The notes under the pieces were generated by a model. It was not told where the DNA came from, searched no databases, and saw only the letters and a list, made by a program, of their open reading frames with translations. From Methanothrix sp. (GTDB taxonomy: Archaea; Halobacteriota; Methanosarcinia; Methanotrichales; Methanotrichaceae): 51,944 nucleotides of DNA. Position 1 is the stretch's first letter. Each line of letters begins with the position of its first letter. The stretch is from contig NZ_JANIHG010000008.1 of assembly GCF_024518575.1 (NCBI RefSeq), forward strand, positions 1 through 51,944. Direction: 5' to 3'. This document shows, piece after piece, positions 26,569 through 26,935 of the stretch. The position numbers were made by a program, and so were the translations under genes.

Positions 26569-26577
26569 GATATAAAC
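26569..26577 (+). promoter_or_regulatory. TATA box of the tRNA-Ser gene
   Basis: GATATAAAC is about 26-34 bases upstream of the tRNA 5-prime end, so transcription would begin almost at the mature end. The same transcript could continue into the eL40 gene. Confidence 0.6.
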
Positions 26578-26624
26578 CATCAGATCTCTCAGCTGAAGTC
26601 GTGCCGGGGTGGCAGAGCGGACAA

Positions 26625-26657
26625 GCTCTGGGCCGTGCTCCAGCGGCAGAGGTCCAT
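26625..26657 (+). other. 33-nt D-loop intron of tRNA-Ser(CGA)
   Basis: A bulge-helix-bulge is formed by GGAC (26619-26622) with GTCC (26652-26655). The 3-nt bulges are AAG (26623-26625) and ATA (26656-26658), and the 5-bp inner helix is CTCTG/CAGAG. Cutting after the second bulge base places the intron between tRNA positions 21 and 22. The outer helix is weak and is only the D-stem. Confidence 0.78.
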
Positions 26658-26708
26658 ACGCGGCAGGCTCGAGACCTGTTGTCCCTTTCAGGGACGCTTG
26701 GGTTCAAA

Positions 26709-26738
26709 ATGGCGCGGACGTCGAGTCCACCATGAAAA
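26709..26738 (+). other. 30-nt T-loop intron of tRNA-Ser(CGA)
   Basis: A complete bulge-helix-bulge is present. The outer helix is the T-stem TTGGG/CCCAA and the central helix is TTCA (26703-26706) with TGAA (26733-26736). The 3-nt bulges are AAA and AAT, and the inner helix is TGG/CCA. Cutting after the second base of each bulge joins positions 59 and 60 and restores the loop TTCAAAT exactly. Confidence 0.88.
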
Positions 26739-26788
26739 TCCCAACCCCGGCGCCAAAACGATATCCTTCATCGGGGAGAGTAACTATT

Positions 26789-26935
26789 ATGGCCAGATTT
26801 CCAGAGGCAGAAAATCGAGTTCTGAACGTCAAGATATGCATGCGCTGCAATGCGCGCAACCCCGTCAGGGCGACACGCTGTCGTAAATGCAGGTACAAGG
26901 GCCTCAGGATGAAGTCCAAGGAGAGCAGAGGATAA
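26789..26935 (+). CDS. rpl40e: Ribosomal protein eL40
   Basis: A 48-residue zinc-ribbon protein of the large ribosomal subunit. Two CxxC pairs (CMRC and CRKC) hold the zinc, and the tail is basic ([14 protein letters not shown]). The ATG has GGGGAG ten bases upstream and lies only 34 bases after the tRNA-Ser gene, so both may share a transcript. The longer frame from 26609 runs through the tRNA and is not real. Confidence 0.92.

Follow-up and report, generated by a model that had tools for sequence, protein, structure and literature searches.

The window analysed here, a stretch of 51,944 nucleotides of Methanothrix DNA, contains a gene for tRNA-Ser(CGA) that is interrupted in its D-loop and again in its T-loop, and the question is whether such a gene yields a functional tRNA and, if so, which enzyme removes the two insertions. 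Two published reviews tie non-canonical and multiple archaeal tRNA introns to splicing endonucleases (EndA) of the (alpha-beta)2 or epsilon2 type and describe the euryarchaeal enzymes as strict (PMC4090602, PMC4033280). Euryarchaeota are assigned alpha4 or alpha2 enzymes and a single canonical intron in their tRNA genes (PMC4090602), alpha2 enzymes are stated to cut the canonical bulge-helix-bulge (BHB) alone, and euryarchaeal multiple introns are listed for Methanopyrus kandleri and Methanothermobacter thermautotrophicus only (PMC4033280). Non-canonical introns are also mentioned for "three thermophilic euryarchaeal methanogens" (Chan 2011), which that passage leaves unnamed. A preliminary description of the locus had taken the DNA to come from a probable euryarchaeal methanogen, correctly, since named loci carrying the same gene (Methanothrix sp., Methanothrix harundinacea and Methanotrichaceae MAGs) place it in the Methanotrichaceae; its view that multiple non-canonical introns are mainly a feature of Crenarchaeota agrees with the literature, which names the two euryarchaeal exceptions (PMC4033280).

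Anatomy of the gene and its two splice sites

The tRNA-Ser(CGA) gene occupies positions 26603-26755 of the plus strand and, with its flanking elements, is composed as follows.

26571..26576, plus strand: TATA box TATAAA, 32 nt upstream of the mature 5' end
26603..26624, plus strand: exon 1 (acceptor 5' strand, D-stem 5' strand and most of the D-loop; tRNA positions 1-21)
26619..26622, plus strand: exon strand GGAC of the intron 1 central helix H, pairing with GTCC at 26652-26655
26623..26625, plus strand: 5' bulge of intron 1, AA then G, cut at 26624/26625
26625..26657, plus strand: intron 1, 33 nt, in the D-loop at position 21/22, with a relaxed HBh' motif
26626-26630 and 26647-26651, plus strand: paired arms CTCTG and CAGAG of the intron 1 inner helix
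26656..26658, plus strand: 3' bulge of intron 1, AT then A, cut at 26657/26658
26658..26708, plus strand: exon 2 (D-stem 3' strand, anticodon arm, long variable arm, T-stem 5' strand and T-loop positions 54-59)
26703..26706, plus strand: exon strand TTCA of the intron 2 central helix H, pairing with TGAA at 26733-26736
26707..26709, plus strand: 5' bulge of intron 2, AA then A, cut at 26708/26709
26709..26738, plus strand: intron 2, 30 nt, in the T-loop at position 59/60, with a strict hBHBh' motif
26737..26739, plus strand: 3' bulge of intron 2, AA then T, cut at 26738/26739
26739..26755, plus strand: exon 3 (T-loop position 60, T-stem 3' strand, acceptor 3' strand, discriminator G and CCA)
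26789..26935, plus strand: gene for ribosomal protein L40e, a conserved neighbour directly 3' of the tRNA gene

Removal of both introns leaves a normal 90-nt type-II tRNA-Ser(CGA) with the T-loop TTCAAAT and an uninterrupted anticodon loop (CTCGAGA, anticodon CGA); the CCA is encoded at 26753-26755, and the body of exon 3 is 26739-26752. All coordinates in the preliminary description, which had assigned 33-nt and 30-nt introns to this gene, proved exact to the base, as did its placing of two BHB-type introns outside the anticodon loop and its prediction that excision of the second restores TTCAAAT. It had also credited both sites with a full BHB, and this holds for the T-loop site but not for the D-loop site. 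Intron 2 scores as strict hBHBh', with 3-nt bulges, a 4-bp central helix, the T-stem (TTGGG/CCCAA) as outer helix and TGG/CCA as inner helix. Intron 1 has a central 4-bp helix, a 5' bulge and an inner helix, and scores as relaxed HBh'; it lacks the outer helix of the strict motif, GAGC (5' side) and CGC (3' side) forming no pairs beside the bulge. Beyond the 3' bulge there is just a two-pair D-stem (GC/GC), set off by unpaired bases. Such motifs are weak evidence by themselves because relaxed BHB-like motifs are common in the window, where a scan of its whole length found about 5 relaxed motifs per kb per strand and about 0.4 strict motifs per kb. The motif itself was therefore not used as proof, and a chance motif was set aside as an explanation through the comparison of orthologues described below.

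When the window sequence was folded with ViennaRNA, forcing the T-loop BHB cost about 3 kcal/mol and forcing the D-loop helix about 5 kcal/mol above the minimum, compared with 0-3 kcal/mol for the splice-competent fold of seven canonical introns of the same genome, and the splice-competent helices are missing from the predicted minimum-energy folds. These modelled energies count weakly, and not decisively, against the D-loop site folding by itself. The D-stem of the mature tRNA contains an A12.C23 mismatch (26614, 26659; ACGCG), which is found in the Methanotrichaceae and several other families, while family f4 and some outgroups have A12-U23 (ATGCG); C-to-U editing and a tolerated A.C pair are both possible.

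The interrupted gene is missed by ARAGORN and, at the gathering threshold, by Rfam, and other annotation pipelines may also miss it. In the source genome (1.66 Mb, 72 contigs, 99.3% complete) a search with RF00005 returned 41 other tRNA genes, in which the remaining serine tRNAs have the anticodons GCT, TGA and GGA. A second intact tRNA-Ser(CGA) gene, which in the preliminary description would count against its reading if the present gene were unexpressed, was looked for and not found: neither BLAST with the joined sequence, in the source genome and in the closed congeneric genome G046, nor the RF00005 search of the source genome found one, and the BLAST matches in both genomes are pieces of this one gene alone. 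Genes for tRNA-Ala(TGC) and tRNA-Leu(GAG) are missing from the draft source genome and have strong matches in G046, and their absence probably reflects assembly gaps. ARAGORN gives tRNA-Asn(GTT) of L016 (G000:C60:5600-5683) a long variable arm; more likely, the gene has a short canonical intron directly behind CTGTTAA.

Orthologues, selection and intron history

Within the Methanotrichaceae (f1), where the L40e gene serves as synteny anchor for the locus, both introns are present in 40 distinct sequences from 10 of the 11 genera; the eleventh, represented by a single genome, gave no match to tRNA-Ser(CGA). The D-loop intron occurs alone in 16 other distinct sequences of the class Methanosarcinia, and families f3, f4 and f7 have a D-loop intron of 17-38 nt and no T-loop intron. 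The T-loop intron is absent from every family outside the Methanotrichaceae whose gene was read. Overall lengths range over 17-47 nt for intron 1 and 30-44 nt for intron 2. Two families of the class, f5 and f6, and several families that lie outside Methanosarcinia have the gene without interruption, and most of these uninterrupted genes read GCAGAGCGGAC(T/A)A followed by A(C/T)GCGGCAGGCTCGAGA across junction 1 and TTC(A/G)AA followed by TCCC across junction 2. At both junctions they are letter for letter the joined sequence predicted here, with an identical boundary for exon 1. The joined exons thus give a canonical tRNA whose junctions are those of its intron-less orthologues.

As to selection, the mean pairwise identity within the Methanotrichaceae is 0.969 for the exons, 0.503 for intron 1 and 0.598 for intron 2; of the flanks, the 40 nt upstream, with the TATA box, reach 0.613 and the 40 nt downstream 0.379. 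A TATA-like element lies about 31-36 nt upstream in 39 of the 40 distinct Methanotrichaceae sequences. The central helix of intron 1 has all four pairs in each of the 56 distinct sequences that contain this intron, even as the intron strand opposite GGAC varies among GTTC, GTCC and GTCT; that of intron 2 has 4 bp in the Methanothrix genus of the source, and GGAA stands opposite TTCA (3 bp plus A.G) in 31 of the 40 distinct Methanotrichaceae sequences. The bulges at the cut sites keep a constant form across the distinct sequences compared, in which the helices of both introns change in a compensated way. When 3' arms were dealt out between species, a statistic that ignores kinship, pairing of the inner arms fell from 96.5% to 79% for intron 1 (0 of 2000 swaps above 88.5%) and from 89% to 79% for intron 2 (maximum 84% in 2000 swaps). 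The intron reading is certain because relatives match the junctions and because the exons are kept while the introns diverge with compensated pairing.

The D-loop intron is the older of the two because the 16 sequences of the class outside the Methanotrichaceae carry it alone. On the distribution of the sequences, the simplest history would have an old D-loop intron in the class Methanosarcinia, with precise loss by f5 and f6, and the T-loop intron arising at the base of the Methanotrichaceae; these gains and losses are read from the family distribution, and other branching orders could change their number. In two other lineages (L197, G050; L245, G196) tRNA-Ser(CGA) has an apparent intron in the canonical anticodon-loop region instead, so that across lineages this tRNA would have been interrupted at three different places. 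Genera g33 and g25 of the same class (G154-G179, G096-G099) have no recognisable tRNA-Ser(CGA); they have probably lost it, with UCG read by tRNA-Ser(UGA).

A D-loop intron is present, too, in the tRNA-Arg(CCT) gene of L043 (G000:C16:28100-28500, minus strand) and is shared by the source genus and by g3, g5 and g7 (also L328, L329 and L330), the gene being uninterrupted in most other Methanotrichaceae genera. In the source genus and g5 the insert has two alternative 3' sites, with the cut directly after CTAG AA and CTAG CA, or after CTGG AC, and it may be two stacked introns removed in sequence or one long intron, the mature tRNA being the same. These D-loop introns support the tolerance of such introns in the Methanotrichaceae.

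The splicing endonuclease and the competing readings

The source genome has a single EndA gene (L044:808-1890, 360 aa), and identification of the EndA subunit type was among the checks that the preliminary description had proposed. The reading frame contains two PF02778 and two PF01974 matches, that is, two repeats of N-domain plus C-domain, with the triad Y297/H308/K339 (numbering from the alignment) in the C-terminal repeat and no catalytic His in the N-terminal one. One gene, tandem repeats and Tyr/His/Lys in one repeat define the alpha'2 type, and the protein would accordingly be a homodimer, as judged from its sequence. No second EndA locus or beta subunit was found, the source genome having just one PF01974 locus; each of the 128 class genomes that were searched gave exactly two PF01974 matches, and the frame that holds them, where listed, is usually 350-400 aa. 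Among 28 proteins of the class, none has an insertion of CSL or ASL length at the FYG...LSL site, the length of which varies by one residue only. A broad enzyme of the (alpha-beta)2 or epsilon2 type was rejected on these grounds, namely the lack of a second subunit gene and of a CSL or ASL insertion. The best PDB matches are the alpha'2 entries of Archaeoglobus fulgidus (1r0v, 1r11, 1rlv, 2gjw; E 1e-42). The Methanothrix protein is longer than A. fulgidus EndA (360 vs 305 residues), keeps two full N+C repeats, and aligns with the wild-type protein without a gap at the loop site, where 3p1y, which we take to be a chimera of A. fulgidus EndA with a crenarchaeal loop, has an insertion of about 10 residues.

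We regard it as highly probable, on the sequences compared, that this is a working single-copy tRNA-Ser(CGA) gene whose two BHB introns are cut by the sole alpha'2-type EndA and whose exons are then joined; that the gene is spliced is almost certain. The transcript would carry two archaeal BHB introns for the cell's only splicing endonuclease, an alpha'2-type homodimer. Cutting of the T-loop intron, a strict BHB stacked on the T-stem, need not depend on the tRNA body, the D-loop intron would present a relaxed HBh' site to EndA, and the three exons would be joined by the usual archaeal ligase, assumed to be RtcB. The sequences show the anatomy of the gene, its junctions, their conservation, the compensated helices and the type of enzyme, whereas splicing in the cell, the order of cutting and the responsible enzyme are what we infer. 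Against this reading stand the folding costs given above and the fact that tRNA-Ser(CGA) is in principle dispensable, U34 tRNAs being able to stand in for C34 tRNAs (PMC6000648), and is unrecognisable in some genera of the class.

On another reading the locus would be a decaying pseudogene with chance insertions, no functional tRNA being made and UCG being read by tRNA-Ser(UGA), which is present in the genome and can wobble-read this codon; the genera in which the gene is unrecognisable would fit this as well. Given the conservation, however, such decay is very unlikely: the exons are 97% identical across 40 distinct sequences from 10 genera, against diverging introns and flanks, the two insertions occupy the same junctions everywhere, the helices are compensated and the TATA box is kept. 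We give just as little credence to the idea that the mature RNA, an unspliced tRNA variant or tRNA-like RNA, retains the insertions, whether as expansion loops or as regulatory elements. The minimum-energy folds without splice-competent helices would suit it, but with an insertion retained in the T-loop the elbow between T-loop and D-loop would be lost, the introns drift in sequence and length with just the splice-site features and the pairing being kept, and the genes of relatives equal the joined sequence.

More deserving of attention, if still unlikely, is the proposal that the gene is spliced and the alpha'2 EndA is strict, the D-loop intron being cut by another nuclease or with a helper. 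Broad specificity has been ascribed to the CSL and ASL loops, and alpha'2 enzymes have been called narrow and loop-less (PMC6379350, PMC12397907); the alpha2 enzyme of Haloferax is said to require hBHBh' strictly (PMC7714728), and the D-loop site lacks the outer helix. On the other side, EndA reads the bulges and the 4-bp helix, and these keep their form; homodimeric enzymes are said to be capable of cutting BHL-like motifs (PMC8707768), and A. fulgidus EndA is described as able to remove a BHL intron from a full pre-tRNA (PMC6379350). The literature is thus divided on whether homodimeric EndA cuts relaxed sites. Cutting of both introns by the sole EndA, our preferred reading, requires some tolerance at the D-loop site, and to that extent the broad-range enzyme suggested in the preliminary description stands; the T-loop site is strict, and there is no crenarchaeal-type enzyme. 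Broad range, as suggested from sequence, is a possibility that depends mainly on one relaxed site.

Relation to known systems and implications

Archaeal tRNA genes interrupted by several non-canonical BHB introns are a known kind, to which this gene adds a case from a lineage that is not listed for multi-intron tRNAs in the literature surveyed, although an earlier mention of the gene is possible. The nearest parallels are the multi-intron pre-tRNAs of Thermoproteales, such as tRNA-Pro(UGG) of Pyrobaculum islandicum with introns at 25/26, 56/57 and the canonical site (PMC4090602), in which a single tRNA likewise carries BHB or relaxed BHB introns in more than one non-canonical position, 59/60 being a listed one. 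The Thermoproteales, however, have an (alpha-beta)2 EndA with the crenarchaeal loop, whereas Methanothrix has an alpha'2 enzyme without it and no anticodon-loop intron in this gene. M. kandleri and M. thermautotrophicus are also euryarchaeal methanogens with more than one intron per tRNA gene (PMC4033280), but they belong to other lineages, the intron pair of tRNA-Ser(CGA) is conserved across a family, and M. kandleri EndA is (alpha-beta)2 (PMC6379350) rather than alpha'2-type.

Because published statements conflict, the tRNA-Ser(CGA) gene breaks no agreed rule; it falls on a disputed point, for which it gives natural substrates. What is surprising is that the intron pair has been kept throughout a family whose type of EndA is often called too strict for one of the two sites. 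It is possible, though we hold this only tentatively, that the alpha'2 EndA of the Methanotrichaceae and of other Methanosarcinia is efficient at cutting relaxed non-canonical introns without a CSL- or ASL-like loop, having reached broad specificity by another route, and that D-loop and T-loop introns accumulated stepwise. If so, a loop-less broad EndA would have let single-copy tRNA genes in a class of Euryarchaeota build up such introns. With nearly identical exons, the gene exists in the Methanosarcinia without introns, with one and with two, and the coevolution of enzyme and intron, the gain of introns and their precise loss can be tested along this natural series.
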